Assembly (NCBI GenBank): GCA_009760855.2
Contig: WPIO01000001.1
Span: 22,100,501 to 22,164,500 of the forward strand
Direction: 5' to 3'
Source: Cristatella mucedo
Taxonomy: Eukaryota; Bryozoa; Phylactolaemata; Cristatellidae
Length of the DNA: 64,000 nucleotides
Positions 25,747 to 63,795 of the stretch are shown in pieces; within the stretch, counting starts at the first letter, position 1, and every line of letters begins with the position of its first letter. The notes under the pieces are model-generated. The model worked only from the letters and a program-made list of their open reading frames with translations. It was not told the origin of the DNA and did not search any database. Both the position numbers and the translations under genes were made by a program.

Positions 25747-28700
25747 TTAGCAGTTCAACATCGACATGTTTCTAATGGACACCCCTTGCGATCCACTCAG
25801 CTGCTTTCCGGTTCGTCGGTCGGCACAGTAGCACACCGATCCTGTGCACTGAACACGATCATAGTTACCATTGGCAGTGCATCGGAACATTTTGCCAATA
25901 AGATGTAGCTTCTTGTAGGCTGCCTTATCACGAGCACAGGCTGCAATACAAAAATGGGTCGTCCTCAAGGATATGGTGCCACAACAATCTAATAGGGGGC
26001 AGAAATGATGTCATGGCACATCTTTTGAAGGAAGAGTGGTCAACAGTGTAATAATGAAGTGTAGGCAGGCTTAAACGATAGATTTATCCGTGTGGCACAT
26101 GAAGCCCTTGGGCGTTACACCGAGCAAGTAGGCAGCATGTACGGTCTATCCAAAAACAAGGCTGATCCGTCAGCTGGACTTGAAAGCACTAAATGCTCCA
26201 ACAATTAATACTTCTACATGGAAAGATCGTGCCATTCTCTTAAGAGTTTCAATGACCTCTCAAGCCTTTAGCGAGAATTCAACTAACTCATTGATAAATT
26301 GATAGTAAGCATAAAGATAAATTGATAGTAAGCATTGCTACAGTTAGGGCAGTATAAGCTAGTCGTACTTACTGCAAAGCATATCCTTTGAGTCTCGGAT
26401 TGGTACTGCTGTGCCATTAATCATCGTGCCATCCTTTTCCACACAGTAACAACTAAAAAAGAACTAAAGTGCTGGGGAAAGCTCGTAAATCTCTTTCATC
26501 ACATGGCATGTAAATGTCCATCAATCACATATGGGTGGACACTGATGAGCATCCCCTGAGTTTATCACTTATCCTCATCATGCACAGACATGTGCCTGCG
26601 GATGGTGGCCTCAATGCATTTGAGGCACTACATCTAATTCTCTCGTGGCTTGCTGTGTGAACATTATTCAAAGCGTCAAATGAAACATGCACGTGGCCAC
26701 ATAGCACAGGCTGAGGATGGCTGCTGATCGCAGTAACTAGAGCACCGACTCGTGATCCTTCAAGCAAACAAAACCGGAAAAAATTGCGACAATGTGCTGC
26801 TCGGTCTAAAGGACTAATCTCATAATTCACACGCATAGCAACTACCGATGGTAACAAAGTGCTTTACTGAAAGAGCCCTCATTACAATTCGTACGCACTT
26901 CACCAATACCTATAGCTTACATAGTATACGACTGGGAACCTTTTTAGTTGATGGTTCAAGACTACCACGAACGAATCAGTTACAGCCAGTTATGCTTTTC
27001 AATAATCCACATGATTACGCAACAGAATTCTTCTACAAGCTCCATTCACGGAACAGCATATAAGCAGCTCTTATTAGCAGTTGTTCCTACAAAAGCACTA
27101 GTTAATAGACGAGTGAAAGCCATTGTATATCTGGAAACCTATTGGCATGTAATTGCGACTAAGCACAATTCTACAGACACCGCATCTGCATAGTACAGAA
27201 ATAGCTTGAAGCACACTTTAGACACCGTCGCATGGTGAGCAAAACTCTTCAGTTCTTTGGCTTCTCATTGCTTCTCAGTGGACGCTTCAGTGGCCATTAA
27301 ATGACAGCAGCATTCGAGAAAAGGAGCATTTGCTTCTTCCTTTCCATCTAATAAGACGCACTGCAGTGCACAGCTAATCCATAGAGGAGGGCCATTGATA
27401 ATCGAGTGCCCTTTGCTCCAATACCCAAGCACAATTCAAGTGCCAAATGTGCCATCATGACCCACTGTCACTAAGCACTATTCCCTTACAAATGCAAACG
27501 ATATATCTGGAAGCTAATGCTCAGCAGAGGTGGGGCAGTTCAGGCTGAAGATGCCAAACATAATCACCTATGACAGTTTGACTGACCTATGTCGTACCAG
27601 TGACAAATGTCCAGGGTAAGACTACCTTGATCTTCACTACACTGCCAATGATAATGAAATATTAACTATATTACCCAGAAGAGCTCATCCCTTTTCTATA
27701 CACTTCACGCAGGCTGAATGGAAGATTTAGCTCTGTTGTTAAAATGCTTGCCTTTGACAACGGAGGTAAGATGATCACCTTTGGCTACCGAGCTGGGCTC
27801 GAGCCTTGGGTTTATGTGAAACACCTGGATAGAGCCACCATTATCGGACCAAAGAGCATTGCTAATCATGCGCACACAAATGGCTGCTTATTTGCAGTGC
27901 CAAGCTCCCACTCGCTTGTTACTATCTATTGCACATCTATGTGCATGGGTCAATCGCAGAGAGCTTTCTTCGTATAAAACTCCTTGCTTGGACTAACACC
28001 CACCAGTTAGTGACCAGCAAACTTGACTAAAGCGTGTACAACATCTACAAAAGTAGCAGAAAGAGAGTGAGAAATGTCGGGAGTGACGACTAATTGTAAA
28101 AACTATTTCAATTTCGTTGTGGGGTTGCATCAGCAGCAAACCAGTCATTATTTGTTGCAATTCTAAATTGGGTTCAGCAAACATGTTTAGACCCACTTGT
28201 AACTTGCTTCCTCTAATCACTGAGAGTGGATGAGCATGGCTTTTATCTGCTGGCCTGGTGGGACGGCTCCTGCTTGTCTTCGTGTAGGTCTAGGGGTAGG
28301 GCTGACCGGATGTTGGGACAAAAGCCTTCGTGGTTCGGAAGCTGGCTTCAGGCTTCACCGGCCTATGGCTGAGTGTTCAGTAGGCATGCCTGCTTTGGAC
28401 CCCAATTAAGAGCCCAGTATTACACCACGATCAAATTCGTACCATGCTTCCCTAGTGTCAAGGTGCAGAAAACTAGAAACAGCACCATAAAACTTTCCAT
28501 AGATGCAGGAGGCAAGTAGACAGAACAGATCACAAGTCTTGGATGTTTTCATAGATATTGCTCGTGAGATAGAAATGCAAAACATGGTGATTTTTCGCTC
28601 GTCAATAAGAGTGCATGCGTATGATTCGTCCAAAAATTGAGTAGCCAACCATGAAAGATGACCCACCTGTTAAATGTGTAACACATATGCACTCTTTAGT

Positions 28701-30994
28701 GGCTTTAGCTCTTTCTTTAACTCCATACATGTTTATGGCAATTGTACTTCATAATGCAAATGAGCGACTGAACGTGTGAACAATAAATGAACGAATGAAC
28801 GACAAACGTGCGAGGAAACACACACACACACACACATCTATGTGTATACCCTGAAATTGTATTACATAGGTCATGCTAATATCAAGTATTTAGACATCCT
28901 CAGGAAGAATGTACAATTTCCTAGTCACAAAACAGATCAAATACGCCCACAATGGTGCATACGACGCGTGCAAGAGAACTGAGTTTGACGCTGTGCTAAC
29001 TTAAGACGTACATACAACCTTGCACACGCACGCACATACATGTGCGCACTCATACACACACACATACACACACACACACAAACACACACACACGTGCGCA
29101 CGCACATGTGCGCACGCACGCACACGCACATAAATGTGCATGCACACAACCAGACCACATCGCCTGAATGCAAGCATCAAAAAAGCACATGTTCACGCCC
29201 ATAATATATGCAGTTGTGTGCCAAATGTTTTCCACCAATAACAAGTCAGTGCAGTGCACAGTTGCTTAGCAACAGCCTTGGTCTAAGTGAGTCCGACTCT
29301 TCTTGCTTCTGCCCAACACTGTTCGTTTCCATTGGCCCTCTCTTCGGCACATATTCCACTAGCACTTATGCCAGCACGAGTCTCACTGCCACAGCAACCT
29401 TGCCAATGACAGAGCTGCTCACACCGACCACTTTTCAAAACTGAGGCTCTTTGAGTAACATATACATCAATCCCACGATAATATCCAAAGGTTGCTGAAA
29501 CTGTCCATAGTCTTTCAGTGAATTTTTTCATGCACCACAATGAAGACTAGATAAGGGTACCACAATCTATACTGCCCTCCATAAGTTTCTATGCACCTGG
29601 CCTACCGATCAGAGTTTGGTTGTCGCTAATGCCCGCATTCCAGTTAATCACTATGCCACACTAATAATTAAATTGCAACAATCTGCTCATGCAATTTTGG
29701 CTTTATTCACAGGTTACTACGTTTGGCTAAGTGAGTAACTGCATTTTCTGGCAACCGAGTTGGTGGCTTGCACGTAAACAGGTGTGGTCATGTGATCCTT
29801 CCTCCCCCTTCCCCCCCCCCAGTGGAGGCCATCCAGTAGTAGATATTTTGATTTGCTTTGTCACCAACAACGCCTCCTCTGTGAATGATGAGCTAAGGTA
29901 ACCCTATGTCTCACTGACATGAGCAGGCCAGCACTAGCCCTGGTGGGCATGAGTAGTTTCCCAAATTAATGGCCCTTCCCTCCCACCCCAGTGGGAAGCA
30001 GTCTGTGCTGTCGATTCAATTGGCTGCGCTCGACTATCCTACATCGGCCTGTTTCTTGCAGCTCTCCAAGCCCCTGCCCGATTAACAGTTCAAGCTCCGA
30101 ATCAAAGACTGCAAACCATAAATCTGATTCGACAAGACCGCGAATTCATGCGATTGCTTCTTCTTCCAGGGACAAGCCTCTCATTAAAAAAGCTCAGCGC
30201 TGGCGAGCAGTCTCGTAAAACACGTCCGAAGCGCTTTTTCTCGGCGTCCCGCGAAGGACTGGTCGAACAGGTCTGAACAGAAGCTATAAGTAACTGGTGA
30301 GCAACGACAGCAGCCGAGACAGACGCCTCCCCTTACCTAGATCCCGAGCACTGCCTCGCCGCGTATGTACCGTCAGAATCACAGACCGGCAGCGTTCGCC
30401 CGAGCAACTGAGGTCCTGACTTCAGCTCGTTGAGCTTGGTATTGCACACTCCCGCAATCGTCGCGTCAGCCTCTAGATCTATTTCAAATGAAGCGCATGA
30501 GCCTGACAGTACAATTAGATGCGATAGACTTGGTGTCTGCAAGAGGCCGCAGTGCATTAAGCTACAAAGCTGTGCAATGAAAAGAGCGCTAAGCAACGCA
30601 AACTTACTTTTAGTGCACAGCCTCGTGCTTAAGTCGCACAGCAGACCCTGGCCGCACTCCGACGTCCTCGGACTGCCAAGAAGAAATATAGACGAGCAAC
30701 GCTGTCCTTCACCTATAACGTTTCACGCACTTTCTCTCTGGTGGCTTCACCTTCCTGTATCGTAGTGGACTCCCGACAATGTTCAAGTCGTGGCCAATGC
30801 TTACCGATTTGGATAAGGCACGTCGGGCAACAGCCACAGAAGCCGCCCTTGGCCTCGAAACTTCCGTTTTTTGCAGCGCAATTAGCCGCAGTTAGCTGCT
30901 CAGAGCAGCTCACCCTGTTGCAATAATCGCTAGGGCAGACGAAGAGGCCCACGGCGGCAGACACGCAGGACAATAGCAAGACGGACCAGCGCAT
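25747..30994 (-). CDS. Gene B: secreted IGFBP-N-like plus two thyroglobulin type-1 repeats
   Basis: Five exons: 30994-30805, 30712-30608, 30472-30337, 26452-26373, 25940-25747 (stop TAA), with GT-AG introns in phases 1, 1, 2, 1; 234 residues. The signal peptide is MRWSVLLLSCVSAAVGLF. The 12-cysteine N-domain shows CPSDYCNRVSC, GGFCGCCPTC, GEGQRC and TSECGQGLLCD. Thyroglobulin repeat 1 (exons 3-4) shows C..LPVCDSDGTYAARQC, then CYCVEKDGTMING and a last C. Repeat 2 (exon 5) shows CARDKAAYKKL, FRCTANGNYDRVQC and CYCADRRTGKQL and ends LNC. Each repeat keeps six cysteines. Thyroglobulin type-1 repeats often inhibit cysteine proteases, and the N-domain type binds growth factors in vertebrates; the actual target is unknown. 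Exon 3 is 21 bp longer at its 5' end than in E and F, and intron 3 is 3.9 kb, full of simple repeats. No TATA box is obvious. Confidence 0.85.
27714..27840 (+). mobile_element. SINE family 2, diverged copy in gene B intron 3
   Basis: Plus-strand diverged copy. The head is GGCTGAATGGAAGATTTAGC.. GTTAAAATGCTTGCC, followed by the B-box area GGGCTCGAGCC and then ATGTGAAACACCTGGATAGAG, which matches the tail start of the copy at 24885-25020. It lies antisense to gene B inside intron 3. Confidence 0.4.
28817..28836. repeat. (CA)n microsatellite
   Basis: A pure CA dinucleotide run of about 20 bp inside gene B intron 3. Confidence 0.8.
29030..29140. repeat. Imperfect (CA)n/(CG-CA) microsatellite
   Basis: A CA-rich run with GCACGC interruptions in gene B intron 3. 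The cysteine-rich open frames on the minus strand here are translations of this repeat, not a gene. Confidence 0.75.
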
Positions 30995-31649
30995 TGTTAC
31001 CAGCTGTGTATGTTTACAGACCGATCGACCATTACCAGCGAATAACCTCTAAGCTGCACAGCGCGCATGCTCGCTCCTTGCTTCCGGTATCTCCTGCGAG
31101 CTTTCGTCAGAGCTTGCCAGAAAGCACTTAAGTACTCCAGCTGAAATTTCTCCGCACCACACGATAAGGATGTGTGGTGGCTCTTTCGCAGCTGTCTCTC
31201 ACCCACAGTGTCAAGTGTAGGACCTACGAGGTCCATCTTCGGTCTCTCTTTAGTTCGTTGCTTTCTTAAGTATACTGGCGAAACCGGGGCGTGCTAAATC
31301 AGCCAGATTATGGCTGATAATTATTTTTCGCAGTAACTGAATCATAACGGCTAGGAAACAATTGTACAATAATCTTTTGGCAAGGCGGCACAAAATCCGA
31401 AGCCAAGTAATTACCGTAACTGTCATAAGTCATACAGTTTATAAGCTTGCTTAATTGTGTTTCAGCCCGACATCAAAATTTGCACACGTTCAGCAAGGGA
31501 CTTTTAAATCCCAAATTTCAGTAGTGCGGGCAGTGACGCCGTCGCTCCAACAATATCCTTTTCGGTAGCCAGCTTGATCATGCAGTAAAGAAATCCGTAT
31601 TTCGGGTTTAATATCACCACCAAAGTCGCAAGCAGCGAGATGAGCAGAA

Positions 31650-32215
31650 GACGACTCATAATCTGGTGGGAAAAGTAGTTCTGATAGGTAGGCTGAAGTT
31701 CGAGAATGAAAGGACCTGAAAGTCAGAGACAGAACCTTAAATTTGATGTGTTGCTTGATTGAGCCAGTGCAGGTCGGCGAGAAGTGGTGTAATGATAGTA
31801 AAAATGCACTTGATAAAGCGCCCTCAGAGAACTCAATCTCTTCCTAGGCGCTTTACATATGCAACTGAGACGCTCACAACAGACAGGCCTAATTACAGAG
31901 TTTTGCACCAAATGCAACCGTCTGATAGCACATGCCGGGATACCAGCAAGCAGTGAGTTACAGAAGTCGTGACGCGATGTCATAAATGCATAAACCAATT
32001 TAGATGTAGTATCGCTGTCTAAGCAAGCCCGAATTCTTACAATGTCGTGTAGCTAAAAGTTTGCCGACTATACTGTGGAGCTGATGTGATCGTTAAGTAC
32101 AGGGTCATTTTGGAACAGGACGCCTAGACTTTCTTTCAGATTCAACAGGAGATACGCTTGATTAGCCAATTTTGAGCTTTAAGCTTTCCAAATTCTTAGT
32201 CATTATGAGCTAAAA
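31650..32215 (-). mobile_element. LINE family 1 fragment with nested LINE tail
   Basis: Minus-strand reverse transcriptase C-terminal coding remnant (for example AFMTSRHDFCNSLLAGIPAC and IRRLHLVQNSV). It is split at 31795-31866 by another minus-strand LINE 3' tail (AAATGCACTTGATAAAGCGC.. to ..CTAGGCGCTTTACATATG). LINE coding sequence continues on both sides, so the tail piece is nested. It sits upstream of gene B. Confidence 0.65.
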
Positions 32216-32794
32216 GATGGCATACGATGCCGCCAGCGTTTGACAACTGGTGTTGAAGCAATATTTCCTGCTCACAGATCTATGCTTGATCTGAGCTCAG
32301 TATAGAGCCTGTTAAGCGTCGGTGACGCTTCTATTATACCACGGATGATATATAACTAGACGTTTGCAATCATTAACCTGAGTTATTTGTTCGACATAGA
32401 GACAACCTGTATGGTTGCAACCCTTGGAAAATATTTAGGCAAAAGGCAGACATGATTCAAGTGAGACTGCTATCATTTTTGTTTCTCTATGCACAGGGAC
32501 TCAAATGTGAGTTTTATGAGCAGCTACAGCAATGTTACTCTGAATGGAAAAGTTCGTCGGATGTTCTGTCTCACATTGTCCCAAATGTACCAAGTTACTA
32601 AAAATGGTACTTCAGAAGGGTTTTCCGCCACATTACACTAAGAGTGGTTATCGCCAACTGTGTAATAATTATTGCACTCAATATTTGCTTCTTTATTTTC
32701 TAGGCAACATGCAGAAACGCTTGAGATAAGGTAGTGCTGCAGTTACAATAAAGTGATAGACGCAGATGCTTGGGATGCAACAGATATAGTCTTT

Positions 32795-32873
32795 GGGCAG
32801 TAGCAAATGCAAAGTGCCTAGAAAGAGATTGAGTTCTCTGAGGGCACTATATCAAATGCGTTGTTGCTATTAT
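32795..32873 (+). mobile_element. LINE family 1, 3' tail fragment
   Basis: Plus-strand tail only: AGCAAATGCAAAGTGCCTAG, AGAGATTGAGTTCTCTGAGG, then a TTGTTGCTATTATT end. Confidence 0.65.
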
Positions 32874-32944
32874 TACCGCGTTATGATGTCATGTGACATG
32901 CTGTTAAGCTGACGAAAGAATAGCTACCGCTGGTTATTAGGTCC

Positions 32945-33240
32945 TCTGATTACCTACTCCCACTCAATTGTGCTTAGGCGAACAAAGCATACAGGATAAA
33001 AAGATAGGTCTACTGGTTGTACAAAAGCATGCCGCGGTTGCTCTTAGTCGCAATGTGCTCAGTTTCACAACGCTCAACCACACAGAACGAGAATTCACTC
33101 GGACAAAGTGAAGGCAGTCAAGAAACAGAAAGTTCTTTGGCTTCCCTTTAAATGTTGTAAAATCGGGAAATAAAATAATGTCTGTTGGCTGTGAGTTCCA
33201 AGTTTCAGGATCGCAGTAACCATGAGGAACGGTAACCAAG
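32945..33240 (-). mobile_element. LINE C-terminal coding fragment
   Basis: The minus-strand open frame contains ETWNSQPTDIILFPDFTTFK, the degenerate counterpart of the LINE family 1 C-terminal AWNSLPT..PDLTTFK zone. It has no tail, and the rest is not recognisable. Confidence 0.5.
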
Positions 33241-33723
33241 GTACTTGAATGATGATGTTATATTTCGGCAAAAAAATCTAAACTATGTATGACAGCATCC
33301 AGAGCTCGTGTAACCGGCTCTCGCTTGGCTACTGGTTAGCCAAGATAAGGCACGTGCAGGACAAGTTCACTAGACATGCCTTTTTGAACCTTCGTAAGCA
33401 CTCAATGCTAGTCTAGGAATAACCTTGACTATTCAGCTAATGGAAGATGCGTCACATCAATAGCTAGTACAGCTCCAGCCAGAAACATAGGCCTCGGCTG
33501 GCCTCATAGTCTTCTTGCTTTTTTCTCAGTTTGGAGTACACGTCAATTAATCAATGCAGTCGTCTTTGAAAGCAGACATCTAGCACATCCGAATCATGTA
33601 TCAGGCATAAAAATTGTACAGCCACATGGCTTAGTAATGGTCCGCCTTAAGCATGTGAAAGTAATCTATGTCGAATGACTAAACGATAAATGAAGGCATG
33701 TATATTTTATCTAAGTCGTGACA

Positions 33724-33825
33724 TCAAAGCTCCGGAAGCTTGTAGGATGGCTTGAAGTGGATCTCAATCTCAGAATCCTTCACTGTCACTACAATCCGGC
33801 TCTCAGCCATGCCATAAATCTTGTT
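33724..33825 (-). CDS. Isolated coding-like terminal segment, unidentified
   Basis: A minus-strand open frame of 33 codons plus a TGA stop (33726-33724). It is bounded upstream by TAA and an AG at the right place for an acceptor, but without a pyrimidine tract. The peptide (ending SEIEIHFKPSYKLPEL) is hydrophilic, regular and G/C-biased at third positions, unlike the surrounding AT-rich DNA. It could be the last exon of an unrecognised gene, a 5'-truncated retrocopy or chance. Its reading phase does not fit direct splicing from gene C exon 2. Confidence 0.25.
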   Translation of the reverse strand, partial: NKIYGMAESRIVVTVKDSEIEIHFKPSYKLPEL

Positions 33826-33829
33826 TTAA

Positions 33830-34830
33830 TTCATGTTCATACCAGGTGATAGAACTAAAGAGGCGCACGTGATGATCGAACTCAATTATTGGTTATATTG
33901 GTGCTTAAATTGAAAAACCAATCGCCTGCACGAAATTTTTAATTCCTTCATTCTTGGTGCTTTCGTGAAGTTGCAAATAAATTAATCATAAAAAATGTAG
34001 TTTGAATGGATTCCCAAATCTCAGTCTAGCTATCTGCAAGTGAGAATCATTTTTATGATTAATTCAATTAGAATCAGCAATCAAAGTAAGGGTAGTGCAC
34101 TGAGATATTTTATAGGACGACGGCGTCTGCTTCTTGGATTTGAATCGGCGACTTGACCGAGGTCATAAGATGCAGAGGCTGACGATCGTGGACTCAAGCA
34201 GGCGGCTTTTGAACTTCTTTCTTTCCGTTCATTTCATTCCTCTTTTACTGGGCTATAGGGCTGGCAGCACCTGAAAACCGGAGTGCATTAACAATTCAAT
34301 CACACTGAATAGAAAAATTGTGAAGGCGAGCAAAGAAAATCTCCTCATTCCGCCACCGGGGCAATTTAGAGTAGATGCAACGACCGGCCGCCGCGAACAA
34401 AATCAAGCAAAAAACTAAGCGCATGCATGGTGGCTTGCAATAATAAATGAAGTTCGGACGCCACCCTGTCTCTTTACGTAAAAGCCAAACAAGATAGGAT
34501 CCTGGAATTTTTAACGCGATTAGGCGGCTGTGGCCTTTGATCAATTTTTGGACTTGCGAGCTAACGGTTATTGCTTAATATTCTTAATTCACTTTTGACA
34601 ACTGCAGTATAATTTTCTTGTTGTTTTCAATTTTGTATTACCGTCTGTAACTGCTTACAATGAACTAAATTCTCGTCGCCAAATCTTTATGTAAGCTTCA
34701 ATGCAGCTCACAGCAGGGTTAATAGTGCATAGTAACCTATTTAAGGTATTACTTAATGAATAACGATTTCTAGCACTGCAATTTTAAGAATATGTTTGGA
34801 GGCATTCAATTTCAATGACTATAGTTATTG
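33830..34830. other. Non-coding, AT-rich
   Basis: No gene is seen. A tRNA-like B-box string (GATTCAAATCC on the minus strand, near 34136-34146) might be a SINE relic. Confidence 0.3.
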
Positions 34831-34832
34831 TT

Positions 34833-35566: not shown

Positions 35567-35743
35567 AAAAAATCCTAGCACATTAAACAGCCTCTTTTTG
35601 TATAGCGACAGAAAAGCCTTTACGGCTATCACCACCGCTTGCGGTGGCGATAAAGGATCGCCCACCGCAGGAATCGAACCCGCGACCTCGAGACCGAGGT
35701 CATGAAAGCAACCGCCTTACCTAGTGTGCCATCACGGCTCACC
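35567..35743 (-). mobile_element. SINE family 1
   Basis: Minus-strand, well-preserved copy. It runs from the A-rich 3' end (left, AAAAAAAATCCTAGC) to the tRNA-like head (right, TAGTGTGCCATCACGGCTCA) and has the B box complement GGAATCGAACC. It is very close to the copy at 10803-10980. Confidence 0.8.
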
Positions 35744-36954
35744 GAGGCGGGCCTTGTGGGTCAGCGTAAGAACAACCTATGCATAGTTTACTGTTGCCAA
35801 TTGGAGCGGTCGGTCACTGACTGGCCGGTATGATTTGTAACACCCTTCCAGCTACTGGTCCAGCTTGTTTTCTACTGTTCAATATGTATTTTGCCAAACT
35901 GTGGACTTGATACCGTCGCCAGCACTTGAAACAAACTATGTTAATGTTAAGGTCTGAAAACCGTAGGCAACCCTAAATACTGAAATTAATGAAACCTTCC
36001 ATCGTCACCAACTGTTTCGACACGAAAAAAGACACCTAATTTAGTGTTTGAGGTGAACCTGCATATGAGGAGTCAGATGCAAATTGTGCAGCCCCAGTTT
36101 AGCATACATTGAAGAGGCCTAGAAACCGTGGTGGGCCTAGAAAAAAAGAAAGAATAAAAGCTTTTGATCATTCATGCGCCATGCATTCGCAGGTCGACGG
36201 AAAACATCTATTTAAAAATGAGACCATGGGGTTGTACACACTATTATTTGATTTTAATTTCAATTATTTTTAGTTGTTAATTGTTAGAGCTTTGTGTCGG
36301 GTATCTCGTGACTTTGTCCTTTCAATGATGGTAGCCTCACTTGGCGTTGAGTATTGATAGTATAGATTATATATTGATAGGTTGTAAGTACAAATGGTAT
36401 TGATGCCCCTCGTGCCTGGTTCTTGATCGATCCACATCAAGTCACTTTACCTACGTATGAAAACTTCATGAGGCTGGCGACCAGACAGCCTCGTTACTTT
36501 ACAAGCAATCGCAGTGCACATGCAATGTTACTCCAATCGGTCGAAAAGCCACGGACTAGCAAGTGGTGAGTCAAGGATGAGAAGTAAGTAGAAGAAGATA
36601 AGCCCATGAAGGATTAGACCATTAGACGAACCCGAAATGCAGTATAATAAGATTGTGCCACATGCATGCGGCCTACTTACATTGCCAAGTAAGAAGTTAA
36701 GAAAAGATAGTTAATTACGAACAAGAAGTTGGGCATTCATTGAGTTTCAATCCCAGTCAATGTGGCGGCTGTTGCATGGTACTCAATTGAACTTGGCATT
36801 CTCATTATCGTGCAGACTTGGCTTTAATACGTTGGACATATTAGAAAGTAGTGCGCTTTTGGTGTGCCTTTAGAAGTTATTTATGCACAGGTACCTGCAT
36901 AGATACCTGCGCATTTAACTGCATATGCTTTGTATACATATATGCTTACTTTAG

Positions 36955-38584: not shown

Positions 38585-39700
38585 TATAATAATAATAACT
38601 ACTATCATAACACATTTGCATAGCGCACTCTGAGACTGAATCTATCTCTAGACAATTCACAGAAGCTGCATATAAAGTACTACCAAATGTTTGGTGGTAA
38701 CATCCGCAAGCAGCATGCATAGTGTAAGCAGGTACATGCACACGATGGGTGAATCATAAAGACCTACCGAATGCTGTAATAAACAAGCGTGTTTTAAGCT
38801 TATTTTTAAATATTTTTATATGTAGGAGACATGGCGACGTGAGTCGTTAGTGAGTTCTAGGCTTTGGGAGCGTAGGAACTAAAGGCACGGTCTACAGAAG
38901 ATTTGAAGGTTCGCACGAGGTATGGCTAAACGATTCAAGTAAGAACAGCAGGTTGTACTATTCTTCGTTTGATGGGTAGTATTTGTGATAGGTAGGCTGG
39001 AGCCGGAGAAGGAAGGAACCTAAAATTAAGTGACAGAATCTGAAATTCGGTGCGCTGCTTTATTGGGTGCCAGTGCATGACGGCGAGAAGTGGTGCGATG
39101 TGGCAACTGCAACGATTAAGACAGACAAGCCTAGCTGCAGAGTTTTGCAACAGCTGTAAGCACCTGATTGCACAAGCCGGTAGACCAGCAAGCAGTGAGT
39201 TACAGAAGTCGAGACGGAATGTTACAAATGCATGGATCAATTGAGATGTGGTATCCCTGTCTAAACAAGCCCGATTTTTAGCAATGTTATATTGCTCAAA
39301 GTAGGCAGGCCTGACTGTGGAGCTGATGTGGTCGTCTAATGAAAGGTCACTTTGGAACAGGACACCTAGATCACGTGGAGGTTCAATAAAAGATATGCTG
39401 GCGGAGAAGATTTTCAGCGTCAAGTTTTCCAATTTCTTAATCACACTTTTTTGCCCATAACTAGTATGTTAGTTTTGTCCTCATTCAATGTAAAAAAAAA
39501 TTTCGCTGCCATCCATGTGCGGATGTCTTCAATACATGCAGCAAGGATATAAAGAAATTGACATGCTTGAGGGCTGGGATGTATCTAAGCAACGATACAA
39601 CTGTATGTCATCTGCGAAGAAGTGAAAGCCTAGATTGTGCTTGGCAATGACAACAGCAAAAGGGAGATCCTAAACTGAGAAAAAGTGGATCGAACAGTGC
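38585..39700 (-). mobile_element. LINE family 1, long diverged copy
   Basis: Minus-strand copy downstream of gene C exon 2. The AAT-rich tail is at 38587-38600, followed by the 3' UTR and a long reverse transcriptase remnant. An uninterrupted 169-codon stretch at 38935-39444 shows FQSDLSLDDHISSTV, HAFVTFRLDFCNSLLAG and QNSAARLVC. Upstream of it the complement of the motif C/D region continues to about 39700 with stops. Confidence 0.8.
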
Positions 39701-40117: not shown

Positions 40118-40485
40118 TTCGAATGCATATCCGTGAGTTAATATCGCAGTACAGTCCTTGGCGGCACTCGGATGGCCTTGGTTGTCCCGGCACGATGATG
40201 GGAGAGCAGGTCTGTCCTTCTTCTGCAACACCACACGGCTAGTCTGACGAAATCAGCTCGCCATTGAAAGAGCGCGCTTGCGGACGACAGCATACCTATC
40301 TGTATGATGCAGTGGGGGCAGCAGCCGCAGATGGATCCATTCTGCAGGAACTTTCCGTTTTTAGAAGCGCAGCTTTCTTGTGTGAGATCTGCCGAGCATG
40401 TGATGCGAGTGCAGGCATCTTTCGGGCAAACGATCATCATTCCAAGCCCAGACGCTACTAGACAAATCAATATAGGTATCTTCAT
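40118..40485 (-). CDS. Gene C: secreted IGFBP-N-like protein, exons 1-2
   Basis: Exon 1 is 40485-40296 and exon 2 is 40222-40118; the intron is only 73 bp (GTATG donor, TTGCAG acceptor, phase 1). The signal peptide begins MKIPILICLVASGLG. The cysteine-rich domain shows CPKDACTRITC, SICGCCPHC, EEGQTC and SECRQGLYCD and ends ICIR before a consensus GTAAGT donor in phase 1. All 12 domain cysteines are kept except that YC of the start motif is AC, which retains the cysteine. No thyroglobulin exons were found before gene B. Read-through without splicing would add about a dozen residues to a TGA, so a short single-domain product is possible. Its closest relative is gene D. A TATA-like box lies at 40553-40560. 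Confidence 0.75.
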
Positions 40486-46720: not shown

Positions 46721-46734
46721 AAAAAAAAAGTAAA

Positions 46735-46905
46735 TACCAGCTGATTTAACAGCCTCTTTTTGTATAGCGACAGAGAGCCTTGACGGCTATCACCACCGCT
46801 TGCAGTGGCGATAAAGGATCGCTCACCAAAGGATTCGAACCCACGACCTCGGGGCCGAGGTCGAGAAAAGCAAACCACCTTACCTAGTAAGCCATTACGG
46901 CTCAC
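46735..46905 (-). mobile_element. SINE family 1
   Basis: Minus-strand copy with an A-rich end at about 46721-46740, the body, the B box complement GGATTCGAACC and the head end CCATTACGGCTCACC. Confidence 0.75.
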
Positions 46906-47784
46906 CAATTTGTGAGTCTACGTTGAGTTACGGGTGGAGGTACGTTACGTTATATTACATGTCTGCGGATGCCTCTAAGCCAATGGTGTTGACCGCTGAA
47001 CAAGCCACTAAATATTTAGGATTAAATGTCATAGCAATAGATATTGTTTCCCAAGTATGACTGGCAGTAATATTGCCAACACCAGAAGAGCGATATGAAG
47101 ATATCAACGGATCGCCTTTTTCTGCGAAATAAATAGCCCCTCCCCCTCCGAGGGGCTGTGAGTGACCATAGGAAAATTAATTATTCGGTCATTTAATCAC
47201 GTCATGCACGATGTTCGGTAAATGATCTAGTCCTCGAGGCTTCAGTATCAAGACAATCTGTGCTGGAGCATATTCTGTCCCGTTAGAAGCTGTCCACTTT
47301 CTCAACTACGCGCCTTTCGGTCAATGGTTGGACGTGTAATCCCGTAGTGGGCTGTGCACCGGTCCGACTGAGCAAAACTCACCCCACTCGTCGTCGGATA
47401 TTGAACAACTTTTAGAGGAATAAAATACCGTTCTACTGAGTAAAATTAACAATAGAGAAACAGCACTCCAAGCAAAATGGAAAAGCCTCACAGAATGTAA
47501 GCGAAATGTTCCAAGTGGGCTCACGGTTGCATCTGACCTGTATTCACGCCTCCTACAATAGGCTCGCTTTTTTATATCAGAGGACGCTGGAAGAGGGACG
47601 TTGTGTCACTCGCTGTTAAGTACCTGCTTTCCGGCTCATCAGATTCGCGTATACATTCTTGGGTAAATCGGTTTCATCTATGTCACGTGCGTTTTATACC
47701 CAATGCACTGCAGAGTTAAAGCGTTCGCATTAAACACGCTGAAAGTCGCAATCCCCCAAGGGACATTATAATACATGCACTTAC

Positions 47785-48153
47785 TCCTAATGCATACGCG
47801 TTCGCTGATGTCGCAGTACGTTCCTAGCCGACATTCAGACTGTCTTGGCTGTCCGGGCACTATTCCGGGAAAACAGGCCTGTCCTTCGTCTAAAGCACAA
47901 GACAGCAAGTCTGATGACATTAGGGTTGACACGGAAAAAGGGCAGTGCTGGGCGACAGCATACCTATCTGTATGACGCAGTGAGGGCAGCAGCGACAGAT
48001 GGAACCATTCTCCAGAAACTTTCCGTTTTTAGAAGCGCAGCTTTCCTTGGTGAGGTCTGCTGGGCAGGTGATGCGACTGCAGTAGTCTTTCGGACAAACT
48101 ATGCTCATTCCGAGCGAGGTCGATACAAGACAAATCAAGATTGAAATCTTCAT
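47785..48153 (-). CDS. Gene D: secreted IGFBP-N-like protein, exons 1-2
   Basis: Exon 1 is 48153-47964 and exon 2 is 47889-47785; the intron is 74 bp, phase 1. The signal peptide begins MKISILICLVSTSLG; an in-frame ATG 12 bp upstream (48165) is possible, but the chosen start matches gene C. The domain shows CPKDYCSRITC, SICRCCPHC, DEGQAC and SECRLGTYCD and ends VCIR at a phase-1 GTAAGT donor. The usual G-C-G-C-C core is C-R-C-C here. No thyroglobulin exon was found in the 7.3 kb before gene C. Exon sizes are identical to gene C, indicating a recent duplication. A TATA-like box lies at 48229-48235. Confidence 0.75.
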
Positions 48154-51303: not shown

Positions 51304-51403
<100 letters not shown>

Positions 51404-54690: not shown

Positions 54691-54693
54691 ATA

Positions 54694-54769
54694 AGCATTG
54701 GTGGCTACCATCCCCACTTGTCAGTCCTTTATTGCTCGAGTGCAAGTGGGGATGATAGCCACCAATGCT
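54694..54769. repeat. 27-bp inverted repeat with AATAAA in its loop
   Basis: Arms at 54694-54720 and 54743-54769 are complementary over 27 bp with one mismatch; the loop is 22 nt. On the minus strand the loop reads GAGCAATAAAGGACTGAC, so a poly(A) signal (54733-54728) lies in the loop about 225 bp past the gene E stop codon. Confidence 0.8.
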
Positions 54770-54957
54770 GACTGCAGTAGGACTTTTAGCCTACATTAAT
54801 TTTAACTTTTGGTGAACACTATTATTCTTAATATTCGGATATAATAGGAAGAAAAATATAATGTTTCCATGCTGTGCGATATTTTTCGCCGACGCCCTTT
54901 ATGAGGTGTGGCTTACAGGATGCCATAGAAGTGAAATCTGGCAACTGCGTAAGTAAT

Positions 54958-57695
54958 TTAGCACCTGAGCGCCGCTATCCGACCGATAGGCACTGTAAGA
55001 GACTTTACACTTGGTTCTCCTGTTTCTGGATTAGCACAGTAGCACTCTGATCCTCTGCACTGGATTTTTTCGTAGTTTCCACTGTGGGTGCAGGTGAAAA
55101 TGTTTCCAAGTATTCCTCGTTTCCTGTGCCTCTCTCGTGCGCAGGCTACAAGCAGATAACAGAATTCTCAGGTAAGATGTTGTAAAAAATGCAGCACAAT
55201 AATTTAGGTTACAGCAATTTAGTCTTTTATAAGTTGCTTCAATTTTTAGTTTATTACAACGACTTAAGATGTGCGCTGTAACCAGTTATGCGATGGAAGC
55301 TGCTTACGCTCAGGCTTATACTGCAGGAAGCTCTCCGCGGTACTAATGTCCTGCCCTCCTGGCTTTGAGCAGTTAACGTTTTCCATAGATAGTATTTTAA
55401 TTACTCTAACAATTACTAGATACTAATTAGCCCATTCGCAAGGCTGCTCGAACTAGACTAGCATTGATAGCTGACCAGAAAGTGTGACTTTATAGTCAAA
55501 TGCGGTGTACCTGGTCACAGGATAATTGCACTACACAGCTTGCTATGATCACTGTAAATGACCGCCACATGCTTGAGAATAGATTTGTCCTTCCTTTGGC
55601 ACTTGAATGTTGGTGTATTATAGCCAGCAATTCTCCAGCTCAACGACATGGATCTCAGCTTGTTCACCACATGCCTTCAGATTAAGATTTCTTGCGATTG
55701 AGTGTCGGATATACATATTGGACATGTTGCTACGAACTTCCGGATAAAATTTTACTTCCAATCTCGGACAATAATAGCAGTAAAACATTCATATAGCGCC
55801 TGATGAAGGGAACAAGATCTATTCTCGAATCTTGACACGAGCTGAAAAAGTTCATATTATGACTAACCGTTTGAAATGCGTCCCTTCGAATTAATATTAA
55901 TACTAATAATAATATGTAGGACCCTGGGTGAACTAAATCTTTTTCGTGACCCGTTTGTGTGTGCTTAACAAAAACCCTACCTATCGGTTAGTGAGAGCCT
56001 GCTCGGTGTCAGCACGCATAAGCACACAAAGGAAAAGTCACACCGACTGAGAAAATTGTGGCAGAAACATGCTAGTTTTTAGTAACTTCTTAAATATCGT
56101 CCGCTCAAGATGTCTGACGTCAGTTAGAAGTGACTTCTAGGCTTTGCGAGCATGCAAACTGAAGGCTAGAGGCGCAGCTAAACGACCTGAGTCAGAGGAG
56201 CTGGTATCCCAATTGAAAATCTGATTATCGCGTATTTAAATTGCAGGCGCCGTAGCCGCATATGGGAATAAAAGGACCTCAAATTGAGACACAGAACCTT
56301 CAACATTGAAACGCTTCTTGATGAGGAAGAGCCGCTGCAGCTCGGTTATAAGTGGCGTAATTTGGAAGTTGCGAGTGTTAGCATAGCTACGGAGTTCTGC
56401 GCCGACTGCCATGACCTATTGCTCAGGTAGGAAGACCTGCGACTAATCAGCTACTGAAATCTAGTTGGGTCGTCACCAATGAAATGCATGGACCAACTTG
56501 GATGTAGCATCCTTGTCTAAGCAGTCCCGGATTTTGTAAAGTAACGTGGCTGAAAGTTTGGTAACACTGTCAAGCTAATGTGGTCGTCCATTGAAAGATT
56601 ATTTTGGAGCAGGACGCCCAGATTCCATGCAGAGGCTACCGGAGACATGCCGGGCGAGCCCATTTCGATAGCTGGCAATATCTCTGACCATTGCACTTTT
56701 ATGCGAAGCACCAGGTTGTCCCATTAATAACAAGTCCGTATACTTACTGCAGTACATGGTACGTGCGTCCCGGATTGGCACGGATGCACCCTCTATAGTA
56801 GTTCCATCCTTTGTGACGCAGAAGCATCTTTAAAATACAAGTCACATGCACAGTTGAGCGTTGTCGTAGCCGGAGCCGCGCTTTCGCTTAGACTACTTCG
56901 TCACACTATTCACCGGCATTTCAATGTTAAATATTTAATCTTACATCGAGTTTATGCACTGCCTAGGAGCGTACGATCCATCATTGTCGCACTTGGGAAC
57001 AATTTGCCCCCATACCGGAGGCAGGGCTTTCAGCTCCATCAGCGTCATGCCGCAGGTTTCTAAGGTGTAAAACAAACGAAGCGATTAGTGGTGCCTGTTA
57101 ACACCTCTTGCTTAAGCGTCCGTCCCATTATAGTGGCAATTCTAGCAGCATCTTATAAGACCTGGAAGTGCATTCGTTCGTGCATAGCTTTCAAAAAGCA
57201 TACTTGGGTCGTGTAAGTGTGTAAAGCTCGATGCGTACATCATGCAAAAATCCACCTACTTTTAGTGCACTCTCTCGTTGCGTTGTCGCAGTAGAGCCCC
57301 TCAGCGCATCTTTTTTCTGTCATCCAAGGAAAGCCGTGCGAGTAGTCACCGACGCACAGTTGTCCTTCACCTTTAACGCATGTGCACGAGCTAGCGGCAG
57401 GTTCAGCTGATGACTAGGGCACATTTATACATCTAGGCGTGGCAACGCGTCCGACAATGCTCCTGCGAGGCGTCTGCTGCGAGCATAACCTACCGATGTA
57501 CTCGATGCATGTCGGACAGCATCCGCATATGCCACCTTTCCTCTCGAACTGGCCGCCGCCGGCTAGGCAATCGGCGGCGGCCAGCACTGCGGGACACTGA
57601 ACGTGGCTGCAGTAGTCGGCGGGACATGTCAACAAGCTGTACGCGCTGGAAGCGCAAAGCATCAGCAGCACTGTTTGCGTCATCACTTTTTTCAT
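54958..57695 (-). CDS. Gene E: secreted IGFBP-N-like plus two thyroglobulin type-1 repeats
   Basis: Five exons: 57695-57494, 57370-57260, 57059-56945, 56827-56748, 55145-54958 (stop TAA), with intron phases 1, 1, 2, 1; 231 residues. Start chosen at MKKVMTQTVLLMLCASSAYS, which gives a clean signal peptide; an in-frame ATG at 57758 would spoil it. The N-domain shows CPADYCSHVQC, GGICGCCPTC, GEGQLC and KRCAEGLYCD. Thyroglobulin repeat 1 (exons 3-4) shows CGMTLMELKAL, VPKCDNDGSYAPRQC, then ICFCVTKDGTTIEG and a last C. Repeat 2 (exon 5) shows CARERHRKRGILG, FTCTHSGNYEKIQC and CYCANPETGE and ends RC. Exon 2 is 6 bp longer than in the paralogues. Intron 4 holds a same-sense LINE family 1 fragment that begins within about 10 bp of its donor. 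Confidence 0.88.
55905..56740 (-). mobile_element. LINE family 1 fragment inside gene E intron 4
   Basis: Minus-strand, same sense as gene E. AT-rich tail on the left (55890-55915); coding remnants include SPVASAWNLGVLLQNNLSMD and, at its 5' end, TDLLLMGQP, the counterpart of TNLLVMGKP in the intact copy. The 5' truncation lies only about 8 bp inside the intron, so exon 4 reads straight into LINE sequence. Confidence 0.7.
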
Positions 57696-58589
57696 GGTAG
57701 TCCTGCGGTGTGCGAAGCTGAAAGAGACGCCGGTTCGTCGCTGCGTAATTGCGCTCAATTACACCTGCTCAGTCTCAAGCTACCACAAGTGACGCGAAGC
57801 TATTTCTTGCATACTAAAGTGCGACATTCTGCGGAACGAAAGAGCAATCGGTTTTCTGATACAGCAGAGATCGTGCGCTAAATGAGTAAATGATGAACAA
57901 CAAGGGAAGACTTCGCACTTCGCACTTTGCCCATGGATTGTAGTACTTGAGCTCAAGCTTCAATCATGTAAGCCAATAAATTGTATTGCGCGCCCTTACT
58001 TACGCGTTGTCTTCTGCCTGACTTCGCAAATTCACTCGCTGCAAGGCCCGCGTTTTTATACTCTTGTGTCATATCAATAACTTCATTGTTTGTACGTCAC
58101 TAAGGGATTTACGGAATCGCTCAAGTCTGATGAATTGTTAAGAAGAGTCTGTCAGACTTTTTCATGTTACTTTTTCTCGGCATAATTAAAAGAATTTCTT
58201 ATGTCAAATGATGTTTAATCGGGGATGCAGTGGTACTAAAGGGCAATCGGCACCCTATTCAACCTTGAACTTGACTCCGACCTGGCTAGGGAAATGCTGA
58301 AGACCTCGTGGGTCAAAGTTAATTTCCAACTCTCCCAAATACTTGGAATGCCTTCACTCATAGACTTGTGTTTAAGAGACTGCTTTGCTCGTTTGAGCGA
58401 ATTTCGCATGGTCTCCTAACAGTTGCCTAGAGCTAGATGCACGTTCATTTCTTAATAAGTTACTTCATTTTCGCTCACACTATCTCTTCTTCTCTGTCCC
58501 GATCCCCTTGGAATCAAGTTTGCTCTTTTTTTAGCGCCTGACATTTGTCGTTTTAGATATACTTCGTCAATCAATATGAATGTTCTGGG

Positions 58590-58672
58590 ATTAAAAAAAT
58601 CTAGGCTGATTTTACAGCCTCATTTTTATAGCGGTCGAGAAGCTTTGCCAGCTATCACCGCCGCATGTTTGG
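58590..58672 (-). mobile_element. SINE family 1, partial
   Basis: Only the 3' half is present: A-rich end, GGCTGATTTTACAGCCTCAT, TATAGCGG and GCTATCACCGCCGCATG. The tRNA-like head is missing. Confidence 0.6.
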
Positions 58673-59296
58673 TTTAGAGAGGAAATTTCGATTTATTGCA
58701 GCTGAAAATAGCAGAAGCAGTCAAGTGCCTCCTCGCTAGTGAACTATGCACAAAGATTCCCTTGCGACGGTGTGCTTTTTAATTCGAGCAGCTTTAAATT
58801 CGTTTAGATTTTCCCGAACTTCATTCCTGCTGTCTTTCCTTAATCAGCCTCTTCCGTTTTTGTTATTACTTTTTAAAACCTGCGGAAATCTGGGTGCCTT
58901 ATCTTAGTTTCGCCAATGTCGTTGTTGAAACTTTGTTGCCCAAATACCAAGTCGTCAAGTAAGTTCTTCTCAGGATTCCGCTCATACAAATTGCGAGGAG
59001 GTGATATTATTGAACATTGAGTTGTATGTTTGCTATTTATAAATAGCATGAGGCCGGCTATGAGCGCCAGACTGAATTTAGGGCAATGTAAGCTATTTGG
59101 TTGCATTTCCTCGTTACTCCAATTAGCCTCTTGTAGCTCTTGCGGTGATATAACCTACGTTAAGGGTACTTCTCTGAAACATTCTCATAAACTCTTTTGA
59201 TGGACGCCACCACATAACTCTGTCTACAAGCCATACGCTTAGCCCCACGGCAATCCGCTCCAATTCCCCTCTCTCTCTTTCTCTTTCTCTCTCTCT

Positions 59297-59428
<132 letters not shown>

Positions 59429-60689
59429 CTCTCTCGGTCGCTCAGTCTTTTTCTCGCTCTCTCTCCGACACAGCATGCTCTACGGCTTCGCAATATTGCA
59501 TTCAGTTTCAAGGCAGATCGCAGCTAGATTTATCCGTCATTTTACAGACTGAATCTGCATCAGCAAAAGTCTAGGAATGTTTATATACTGGTCGTGGATG
59601 CCTGCGACTTCCTAAATCATTACCAATGGCCAGTGCGTTTCTCTTCTCACTTGGAACCTTGAATAACTTGTAACGTGGACGATTTTGAATATCGAGTGGA
59701 ATTCAGCTCTCCTTCTTTCAGACTATGTTGACATGCAAATTTTCTCTGCCACAGACGCCTCAAGCTAGAAAAGCGGTCTAGGAGTCAGCTCGGTACTTTT
59801 TTGCGTTCGCAGCAACGTTAAAATGAGTATTTAAATTATAAGGATGAGTTAGTGACGCGCTAGTTTATAGGAGAACTTAATGGGAAACTTGAAAGCACCT
59901 ACAAGCTTCCCTACGCAAATTCTCAAATCACCGAAACCAGCTTGAAATTTGGCAAAACAGTTGACGTCGCGCTACTGGCGCCCCGCTCCCCGACGTTCTC
60001 CTTCGTCTCTTAGCAATAGCTTTAATTTGTAACTATTGTACTTTACCTTTGGATAAACTCTGAGCATCTCAGCTCAATGTGCGCCTAACATTAAATGCGA
60101 GCTCTGTAATGAAAACTGTCGGTCATTTACTAACCAAAACATTCTAGAGAGAATAAAGCCTACCATTCCTCCCCCCCCCGAATATTTTCGCCGACGCTTC
60201 TATTTTTTATCTCTAAAACAATTCAAACTGCCCAATATATTTAATATCAGCTTCCACTGCCAATCTTCAATTCTCTAATTGGACGAAAGTGAAGTTTTGC
60301 TCGCATGGTGACTTGGAAGACTAAGCGTATTCGAGAGGTGGGTGTGTAGAATGGGGCGGCACACTGCGCCGCACTAATTAAAATTATATGACTCATTCTA
60401 TAAAATTAAAGCATGCGTTCAAAGCAATAACCATATTACCTCCTAAATTGTGAACTATAAATTCAAAGTCACGTTACATCAAAACTCCGAAAGACGGGCA
60501 CGTCTCGCGTTCACAAGCTGCATGACAATGCGTTTTCGCTTCCGCGTTCACCTTTCTCTGGCCAGTCCCGCGCAGCGCACGTTTGCACTTTTTCTACTAG
60601 CTCCGAGGTATTTTTTGTTTATGACGGCCACAAAACGTCTTCAGCTATTCAAAAGTTCACACGCGCTGGATGCTGGCGGTCGGAAAAGC

Positions 60690-61040
60690 AGCAAACTTGG
60701 CCCAGTGTTGCAGCGAGTCACGTGCAGCAGAGACTCACTGCAGCAAGTGAGATGCTGTTGCAAGTGACTCGTTGCTGCAGTGGTGGCGGCGGCTGGTGCT
60801 GCTGATGCTTCAACTGCTGGTGCAGCTCCAGCTACAGCTGCTCCTGCTATTGCTGTCGCAGTTTCTTTACACTGCTTCCCCATTGCCTCCGAGTCTTTGA
60901 GCTGGCTTGATATCAAGCTGGCTGGCTTGCTTGCTAGTTACTGAAAAGGTACTTCTGTTTTCGAGGTTAAAACTTGCTCATCGTGTGTGAGGCACCAGGT
61001 TCAACATTACACGCTGCAATTAGTTTGTGCAGCAGTGTAT
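60690..61040. repeat. Duplicated GCT-rich flank, copy 2
   Basis: GCT/CTG-rich sequence with short palindromic GCAGC/GCTGC strings. From about 60770 it matches 50960-51240 in order (TTTACACTGCTTCCCCATTG, TTGAGCTGGCTTGA, AAACTTGCTCATCGTGTGTG). It lies about 600 bp downstream of gene F. The alanine-rich minus-strand frame here is repeat translation. Confidence 0.55.
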
Positions 61041-61367
61041 CTATGGAAAACTGCTCTGGCCGATGGTGCAGGTGTGTATACTATCGATGAGCTGCTTTAT
61101 TTTTTGTCTGACCCACTTTAGATGCGGATCTCTGTAATGCAATTTCATCCTTTTTTCTCCCACTGGTCAATGTGTTTTTGGTCCTTTTTTAATGAATATT
61201 AACGTTCAACTTAAATCTCCTTCAGTAAAAATTGCTGCTCAGACTGATGACGTATTACTAATCACTGCATGCAACCTCTTCACTCCTCAATCACGTCTTT
61301 AAAGCGTTTTTCATAGGTGACGGCCTGTCCAATCATTCCAATCTCCATATCAATATTTGTATCGTGA

Positions 61368-61373
61368 TTTATT
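61368..61373 (-). terminator. Candidate poly(A) signal of gene F
   Basis: AATAAA on the minus strand, about 225 bp past the stop codon. Weak evidence, but no closer canonical signal was seen. Confidence 0.3.
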
Positions 61374-61595
61374 TGCCTTCGCTTACACTGCATACCCACC
61401 TGAACAGATTACCTTGAGAGTTTAACGGTGCTGGCTTCAATTTGATGTATCACTATTAACCCGAAGAAAGTCGTTACAGTATTAAAATATTAAAATTGTG
61501 CACTTTAATATAAAGAATAATAAAACATTCTCCGTCTAGAGATGATACCGAAGGTGCTCGACGATAGGGACGATGTCGTGAAGCATCTCACTGAC

Positions 61596-63795
61596 CTAGC
61601 AATTAAGTGACGTTATTTGGCCAATCGGAACTGCTTGAGAGCTCTCGATCCGTTTGCCCGATTCCGGATGGGCGCAGTAGCATGCGGATCCCATGCACTG
61701 GATGCTGTCATAATTGCCGTTGCTGGTGCAGCGGAACATCTTGCCAATGATTCCAAGCTTCTTGTACTCCTGCTTGTCTTGTGCGCACGCTACAATCAAA
61801 TACAAGCAAGTTCGTGACGTCGCATTTCTCCAGGCAATGCGATTTTAAGAAGTGCAGTCGTGAAAGTTTAACACAGAGAAACGTGCGCCACTTATAAGCG
61901 GTCGAACGGTGTGCTTATAGCCTCTTCTAGCAGTGTTGATTAGTTTTTTTGTGTATTAGAAGCATTTGAAACTGCGTATGACATCATCTTGGGCACTTTG
62001 AGGCTATGTAAGCCTAAAATATTCTCAGTCAGTCAGATCGTGGCAAAACGGTAAAGTAGAATGCTTACTCTCGTTCAGGCTCTCGAAATGCGATATCGGG
62101 CACACTAATTTATTGCGACTTCTATCGGTTATCCTCGGCGTATATTCAATATTGCTCCAGCGATATGTTGGCCTCGCGTCCAAGTAATAGTTTAACCAGT
62201 GTCGCTTAGCCGGTAGCGAGGTCAGGCACTCGAAACTCGCCCTACTGTGTCAATGCCAGTGACACAGTCTAGAGTCACCATACGCACTTTTAACAATGTG
62301 GTAGTTCAATTTATTGTAACTATTTATTGCCATTTAAAGATGGATACTGTCACGGCAGACGATTCGATTGCCCACTTTAAGGCGATGTTAATTATTCTGT
62401 TTAGAATATGTCATTTTATATCTGCAAAGCTTATCTCTTCCAAGTACAAACACTGAATTGCAATATTGGTAGTCATGGTAATAATGAGAAGAATAATAAT
62501 AAAAATCATAATTGCTGCTCTGAGAACAAGTACAGAGTACTTTGTCAGGATAGACAAAAGCTGTAAGCAGCAATCACCGCTCGCTACTTCTTACGTGCGG
62601 CATTTGCTAGAGCGTATTTGGGAATTTTATTTTCCGACGATGTAATGCATATACTAGTTAACCCACGCTTACATTCCTTCCTTGAGATTTTGGGTGTTAA
62701 TTATTGACTGTAGTCTTTCAGAACCCCAGAATACCGACATAAACTCTGTAACTCTGCGCGCCAGATAGCAGATATAGGCAAGCTTCTCCGACATTTAAGT
62801 GGGACAGCCATCAAATAAACCATCCCCATTAAACCACTGAGCTCTGTGCACATTAAACAGGCTCTTTCCTAAATAAAACCTCGATGACTACTTACTGCAG
62901 TGGACATTTTGTGATTCCCAGATTGGTACAGACGTGCCATCTATAGTTGTTCCGTCCTTAGTGACACAGGAGCATCTTTAAAAGAAGGTCGAGCAGTTCA
63001 GCTCCAGTTTACTTGCTTCCACGACACTGCTAATAGCAATTCCACACTTTGATTTTACACTGCGCCAAGGCACGATTAATCTTACCGAGAGCCACTGCAC
63101 TGCTTAGGAGCGTAAGATCCGTCGTCTGCACACACTGGCAAGCTACGCCCCAATACTGGAGTGAGGGCGCTCAGTTCCTCCAGCGTCATGGCGCAAGTCT
63201 CTAGAAAACAGAAAAACGCAAGAGCCGTGCAACATATCAGCGTCCGTCTCAGCTTATGCCTTCATTCTATGCTAAAGCTTTTTTGTTTCTATTTAGCAGT
63301 GAAAATGCATGTACCTACATCGAGGTGAAATAAAGCAGCACTCTGGACATTCTGCCACAGCCACAGGTCAATCTCGTAAGCAAATGAAAGTCAACTCACT
63401 TTTAGTGCAAGTTTTCTTTGTGCTGTCGCAGTAGAGACCCTGTGCACACTCTGCCGTACTCGGGACGCCGAGCAAGAGCGTCGAGACGCACGATTGTCCT
63501 TCACCTATCAAGCACAGCAGCCCACATTGTTACCTTAGTAACTTAGGGTAGGGTTGGCAAAGCATGGCAGAGAACATGTCGCGCCGAGGGAGTGAAACCT
63601 ACCAATCTGCTCCACGCAGCTCGGACAGCATCCGCAGAAACCTCCCTTCTCCTGGAACCGGCCGCCGCTGACTGCACAGCTGTCGGCCGTCAGTTCAGCG
63701 GCGCACTGGACCTGGCTGCAGTAGTCCGCCGGGCATCGTATTAGGCCGAACGTACTGGCGATGCTTACCACCAACAGCACCGCTAGTCTCAGCAT
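61596..63795 (-). CDS. Gene F: secreted IGFBP-N-like plus two thyroglobulin type-1 repeats
   Basis: Five exons: 63795-63603, 63504-63400, 63200-63086, 62975-62896, 61789-61596 (stop TAG), with introns of 98, 199, 110 and 1106 bp in phases 1, 1, 2, 1; 228 residues. The signal peptide is MLRLAVLLVVSIASTFG. The N-domain shows CPADYCSQVQC, GGFCGCCPSC, GEGQSC and TAECAQGLYCD, 12 cysteines in all. Thyroglobulin repeat 1 shows CAMTLEELSAL, LPVCADDGSYAPKQC and CSCVTKDGTTIDG, closing at VHC. Repeat 2 shows CAQDKQEYKKL, FRCTSNGNYDSIQC and CYCAHPESGKRI, closing at LNC. All splice sites are GT-AG. It is the cleanest copy of the array and the best template for the others. The domain order resembles vertebrate IGFBPs; single repeats resemble thyropin inhibitors. 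Function is inferred only. Confidence 0.9.

Follow-up and report, generated by a model that had tools for sequence, protein, structure and literature searches.

A tandem array of genes predicted to join an amfpi-1-type domain to two thyroglobulin type-1 repeats

We analyzed a 64-kb stretch of DNA (the window) from contig C111, which is 24.8 Mb long, in a genome assembly of 572 Mb and 688 contigs. A profile search of the window identified six copies (A–F) of a first exon, all on the minus strand in head-to-tail order, and these belong to a tandem array of related genes for secreted proteins. An earlier note on this DNA had described three such genes at 25747..63795. The stop codon of gene B does end at 25747, and the start codon of gene F begins at 63795, but the array is larger than noted, with six copies instead of three. 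Profiles for five exons matched exons 1 and 2 six times each and exons 3, 4, and 5 three times each, with E values of 4e-15 to 2e-41; beyond these, no row had an E value below 0.006. (The profiles were built from the same copies that they recover, and these scores speak for completeness, not for independent homology.) The same five profiles found no further copies in the 100 kb on either side; 5,000 of the 264,000 bases searched are N.

Genes B, E, and F have five exons each and encode proteins of 244, 231, and 228 residues once spliced. Their 12 introns are all GT-AG and follow the same phases (1, 1, 2, 1) in each gene. Each protein has a hydrophobic, signal-like N-terminus (by eye), a domain with 12 cysteines, a CGCCxxC core, and GL(L/Y)C near its end (the N-domain), and two thyroglobulin type-1 (Tg1) repeats of six cysteines each, just as the note had described. 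If the pyrimidine-rich acceptor of exon 3 is used in gene B, that exon is about 17 residues longer than in E or F and carries an additional, odd cysteine; there is a weaker AG near 30450. Furthermore, intron 2 of gene B (105 bases) has no in-frame stop and would read through if retained, while intron 2 of E (200 bases) has three in-frame stops and that of F (199 bases) has four. Gene B could use the second exon 3 acceptor or keep intron 2.

The other copies (A, C, and D) consist of exons 1–2 only and look like single-domain versions of the N-domain. Profiles of exons 3, 4, and 5 found no Tg1 exons for them in the window. In all three, exon 2 is still followed by a splice donor, so a short further exon may have gone undetected. 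A protein-level comparison of the sequences downstream of C, D, and A gave no clear shared terminal exon, only repeats or weak rows (among the best 22 of 46, 65, and 44 per pair). Gene A is the least certain copy because its in-frame exon 1 donor is weak. We also considered a Tg1-like fragment downstream of A, at about 12432–12512 on the minus strand, as a Tg1 exon, but it is too weak (E = 0.006 and 0.02 for the profiles of exons 3 and 5, and 0.05–0.85 by tblastn), contains an in-frame TGA, and lies beside a transposon. It may be a decayed exon or a chance match.

Table 1. Exons of the array genes in window coordinates. On the minus strand, each exon starts at the higher coordinate.
Gene	Exon	Position	Strand	Content	Remarks
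A	1	15628..15817	-	12-cysteine domain only	in-frame donor GTTGGT weak
A	2	15403..15507	-		GTGAGT donor follows
B	1	30805..30994	-	signal-like peptide and cysteines 1-8 of amfpi-1-type domain	GT donor, phase 1
B	2	30608..30712	-	cysteines 9-12 of amfpi-1-type domain	
B	3	30337..30502	-	first half of Tg1 repeat 1	acceptor ambiguous
B	4	26373..26452	-	second half of Tg1 repeat 1	
B	5	25747..25940	-	Tg1 repeat 2 and stop	AATAAA about 107 bases downstream
C	1	40296..40485	-	12-cysteine domain only	
C	2	40118..40222	-		GTAAGT donor follows
D	1	47964..48153	-	12-cysteine domain only	
D	2	47785..47889	-		GTAAGT donor follows
E	1	57494..57695	-		
E	2	57260..57370	-		
E	3	56945..57059	-		
E	4	56748..56827	-		
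E	5	54958..55145	-	Tg1 repeat 2 and stop	
F	1	63603..63795	-		open frame alone passes PF12190 (29.3 bits)
F	2	63400..63504	-		
F	3	63086..63200	-		
F	4	62896..62975	-		
F	5	61596..61789	-	Tg1 repeat 2 and stop	

The earlier note took the N-domain to be of the IGFBP type, which our comparisons contradict. The amfpi-1 family (PF12190, fungal protease inhibitor, MEROPS I83; cut-off 25 bits) passes in five of the six copies at 27.2–34.0 bits, and A falls just under, at 24.3 bits (for B, E, and F, the protein letters in the Pfam scan were slightly inexact at exon joins). None of the six reaches the cut-off of 28 bits for IGFBP (PF00219): five score 16.1–20.0 bits, with E the best at 20.0, and D was not listed. 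As a positive control, two IGFBP domains from the same genome pass PF00219 at 37.6 and 37.7 bits. When we compared a profile of the six domains to the PDB, the only entry with E ≤ 10 was AmFPI-1 (3bt4), with no IGFBP. The first eight cysteine gaps (nine cysteines) are identical to those of 3bt4 in five of the six copies, with the third gap of A one residue shorter; the last three gaps vary slightly. The genome's own IGFBP domains have a cysteine spacing unlike that of the N-domain. We rejected IGFBP membership on the grounds of the Pfam cut-off, the PDB search, and the cysteine spacing. Still, hhalign matched the six-copy profile to a profile of five of the genome's own IGFBP domains with a probability of 82% (E = 1e-5). 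The N-domain is IGFBP-like in its cysteine core, yet judging by its sequence it belongs to another family. (Copy D departs from the motif, with CRCC and GTYC.) More generally, a CGCCxxC domain followed by Tg1 repeats need not be an IGFBP domain, tempting as that label was here. Elsewhere in the genome, but not in the window, there are five IGFBP-domain matches above the PF00219 cut-off, one of them followed by a Kazal domain.

Genome-wide, PF12190 matched exon 1 of B, exon 1 of F, and no other place at E ≤ 0.001, in an exon-by-exon search that is insensitive. A fold predicted from exon 1 alone (six rows) had a mean predicted local distance difference test (pLDDT) score of 75.1 and a predicted template modeling (pTM) score of 0.39, and Foldseek returned no match for this single-exon model.

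The residue directly after cysteine 9 is P, S, S, F, V, and V in copies A–F, so that none of the six has lysine or arginine there, while the sequence of 3bt4 has lysine. We take this position to hold the reactive residue of AmFPI-1, Lys54. For the related insect proteins BmSPI69, PxSPI57, and MsCP8, the P1 residue is given as lysine, or as arginine or lysine (PMC3278429, PMC5309989). With the array's residues, specificity would differ from that of the insect proteins and between copies, or inhibition may have been lost.

In the Tg1 half, PF00086 (cut-off 20.6 bits) passes in B, E, and F with 67.9, 62.1, and 54.2 bits (from the same slightly inexact protein letters), in two stretches each with six cysteines per repeat, and the aligned halves share 12 invariant cysteines. 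Repeat 1 is split between exons 3 and 4 by a phase 2 intron, and repeat 2 is a single exon (exon 5). A C-T-C join links the two units in all three proteins. The tryptophan of the CWCV motif, which is typical of Tg1 domains but not a requirement for membership, is replaced in repeat 1 (CYCV, CFCV, or CSCV) and in repeat 2 (CYCA). A fold predicted from exon 5 alone (three rows) had a mean pLDDT of 76.7 and a pTM of 0.60, and Tg1-containing chains held the top Foldseek ranks, although the best E value was 0.0095 and none was at or below 0.001. Of the layout proposed in the earlier note, the three-part architecture and the thyropin half stand, and the IGFBP half falls. Vertebrate IGFBPs 1–6 also combine a CGCC cysteine-rich N-domain with a C-terminal Tg1 domain in one secreted protein. 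They have one Tg1 instead of two, however, and their N-domain is from a different family by the Pfam cut-off and the cysteine spacing.

We also searched the genome with the B protein, again exon by exon and with the same insensitivity. Of 25 rows with E ≤ 1, 21 were on C111; the others (two on C661, one on C233, and one on C667) align to the second-Tg1 part of the query only. On C661, 946026–951560 and 963081–969250 contain a tandem pair of two-Tg1 genes that are 97.8% identical over 3.9 kb. This duplication is recent. The exons of the pair are cut as in the Tg1 half of the array genes (by eye), and in neither copy is the exon 5-like part in frame. We found no N-domain within 5.5 kb upstream. 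This pair suggests that the two Tg1 repeats may be the older unit and that the N-domain may have been added to them.

Comparisons between the copies look like purifying selection on C/D and on E/F. The two closest copies, C and D, share 78% of their amino acids and have a ratio of nonsynonymous to synonymous divergence (dN/dS) of 0.15 (dN = 0.135, dS = 0.875). For E and F, the ratio is 0.41 in the N-domain (0.323 and 0.784) and 0.31 across the full protein (0.298 and 0.974). These ratios are point values, and dS was not calculable in 11 of the 15 N-domain pairs. Since dN/dS is below 1, the single-domain genes C and D are probably working genes. A tree of the six N-domains groups C with D (100/100) and E with F (85/83), and leaves the joining of A, B, and E+F without resolution.

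We propose, with a probability of roughly 55%, that the array is a cluster of secreted, disulfide-rich protease inhibitors and that B, E, and F are of mixed type, with one I83 domain and two I31 domains; the inhibition itself we infer. Exons 1–2 would encode an AmFPI-1-type domain (I83), and exons 3–4 and exon 5 would encode two thyropin-type Tg1 domains (I31). The N-domain might target serine proteases, or perhaps metalloproteases, from microbes or the gut, and the Tg1 pair might target papain-like cathepsins. One molecule would then cover two classes of proteases, with a role in defense or digestive control, and the variable residue after cysteine 9 would spread specificity among the copies. 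The array's products are possibly defense proteins.

The known relatives of each half fit these assignments, but they lack the combination. AmFPI-1, GmCP8, and MsCP8 are hemolymph proteins (PF12190, I83) that are secreted and have 12 cysteines and a CxCC core, like the N-domain; they are described as single-domain, small, and cationic, whereas B, E, and F add two Tg1 repeats. AmFPI-1 is described as inhibiting an Aspergillus protease (PMC9273619). Similarly, the tick thyropin IrThy (I31) is reported to inhibit cathepsins V, K, and L and is, like B, E, and F, a secreted protein with two consecutive Tg1 domains and a C-x-C join; in IrThy, Cys79-Lys80-Cys81 forms interdomain disulfides (PMC10889554, section 2.2). 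The same article names Trp-Cys-Val as conserved. IrThy has Tg1 domains only, with no 12-cysteine domain ahead of them, and the disulfides of its C-domain are arranged atypically, whereas the second Tg1 of the array genes keeps the usual C-x-C (CYC). Spider venom and gut proteins of the U24-ctenitoxin/TT1LP type are also small, secreted, and often multi-copy, with two Tg1 domains; unlike in the array, no amfpi-1 domain is reported in the same protein in the portions of PMC9972223 and PMC12785369 that we drew on, which list the families separately. A survey of arthropod inhibitors reports I83 from several insect groups only and treats I31 as a separate family (PMC5673224, in the part consulted). 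Another survey, of ticks, lists 53 sequences of I31, with I83 absent from its main text (PMC5361777), and I83 was counted in a monogenean (PMC10308649). Mixed-type inhibitors are known as a class (PMC3278429). We found no published description of a fusion of amfpi-1 with Tg1 in searches of titles, abstract openings, and selected passages (one listing covering 15 of 154 papers), outside subscription papers and InterPro architectures. What would be new here is this joining of amfpi-1 to two Tg1 repeats; the component families and mixed-type inhibitors were already known. If the fusion is real, then it is a natural mixed-class protease inhibitor and takes the AmFPI-1 family, known mainly from insects, into a new setting; the six paralogues would form a set in which a single variable position could reveal specificity.

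A fuller history is tentative, and we would not bet on all of it. An I83 domain may have been fused to two I31 domains in an invertebrate that is probably not an arthropod (see below), when an amfpi-1 gene was joined to an older two-Tg1 gene whose plain form survives on C661. The product would be a two-class inhibitor in which the reactive residue of the N-domain has diversified across the array, and the N-domain, with its weak profile relationship to IGFBP domains, would hint at a common origin of the cysteine frameworks of IGFBP and AmFPI-1.

We also considered that the proteins might serve in immune recognition or regulation, with the N-domain binding microbial surfaces or modulating the phenoloxidase cascade and the Tg1 repeats as spacers or stabilizers. 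GmCP8 is described as an opsonin, a multiligand recognition protein, and bactericidal, and MsCP8 as stimulating phenoloxidase activation while inhibiting none of seven proteases (PMC9273619); the absence of lysine or arginine after cysteine 9 points the same way. However, GmCP8 also inhibits trypsin, thermolysin, and Metarhizium Pr2 (same source), and both of the joined families are inhibitor families. We consider a recognition role rather unlikely.

Another explanation is that exons 1–2 and exons 3–5 are separate neighboring genes (six amfpi genes with one domain each, and three thyropin genes with two Tg1 repeats each) and that the fusion is an artefact of joining them. The exon joins were read from the DNA, A, C, and D have no detectable Tg1 exons, and the C661 pair has the same exon cut with no N-domain nearby. 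And in gene B, no stop interrupts the frame as it passes from exon 2 across intron 2 to exon 3; this open frame includes a hydrophobic stretch, and a separate start is possible there. But the phases of the exon 2 donor and the exon 3 acceptor agree in all three genes, and the 105–200 bases between these exons would leave little room for a promoter and a terminator. Given also the in-frame stops in intron 2 of E and F, we find separate genes very unlikely.

Least probable of all, the proteins could be IGFBP-type binders of a growth factor or insulin-like peptide, as the shared CxCC core, the weak PF00219 matches, the hhalign result, and the Tg1 domain of vertebrate IGFBPs might suggest, but the failure to reach the cut-off that the genome's own IGFBP domains pass, the PDB search, and the differing cysteine spacing all oppose this, and we found no positive support for the growth-factor binding suggested earlier.

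The assumption that the host is an arthropod is probably wrong as well. PF00379 (Chitin_bind_4), a cuticle domain of arthropods, finds no match in the genome, although the lack of a match does not prove absence; the same applies to the molluscan hemocyanin domain PF14830, which also has no match. On the mitochondrial contig (C688), COX1 reads by code 5, and there is a gene block nad1-nad6-cob-nad4L-nad4-nad5 (named by eye), which is presumably lophotrochozoan-like. This contig also has a block of about 1.5 kb three times, at about 2.5–4.0 kb (inverted), 11.0–12.5 kb, and 13.1–14.6 kb, as judged from repeated open frames.

No Rfam family scored above its gathering score within the window. A tRNA-Arg-like prediction at 35659–35752 (minus strand) falls within a dispersed repeat that occurs again at 46725–46906, near gene D, and looks like a tRNA-derived short interspersed element. 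Reverse-transcriptase-like frames of a non-LTR (long terminal repeat) retrotransposon, CR1/L2-like by eye, lie at 7406–8566 (plus strand) and 38938–39468 (minus strand), and similar frames also occur in the flanking 200 kb. Finally, the window has long dinucleotide arrays, TC × 46.5 at 51306–51398 (100%) and TA × 63 at 59300–59425 (98%).

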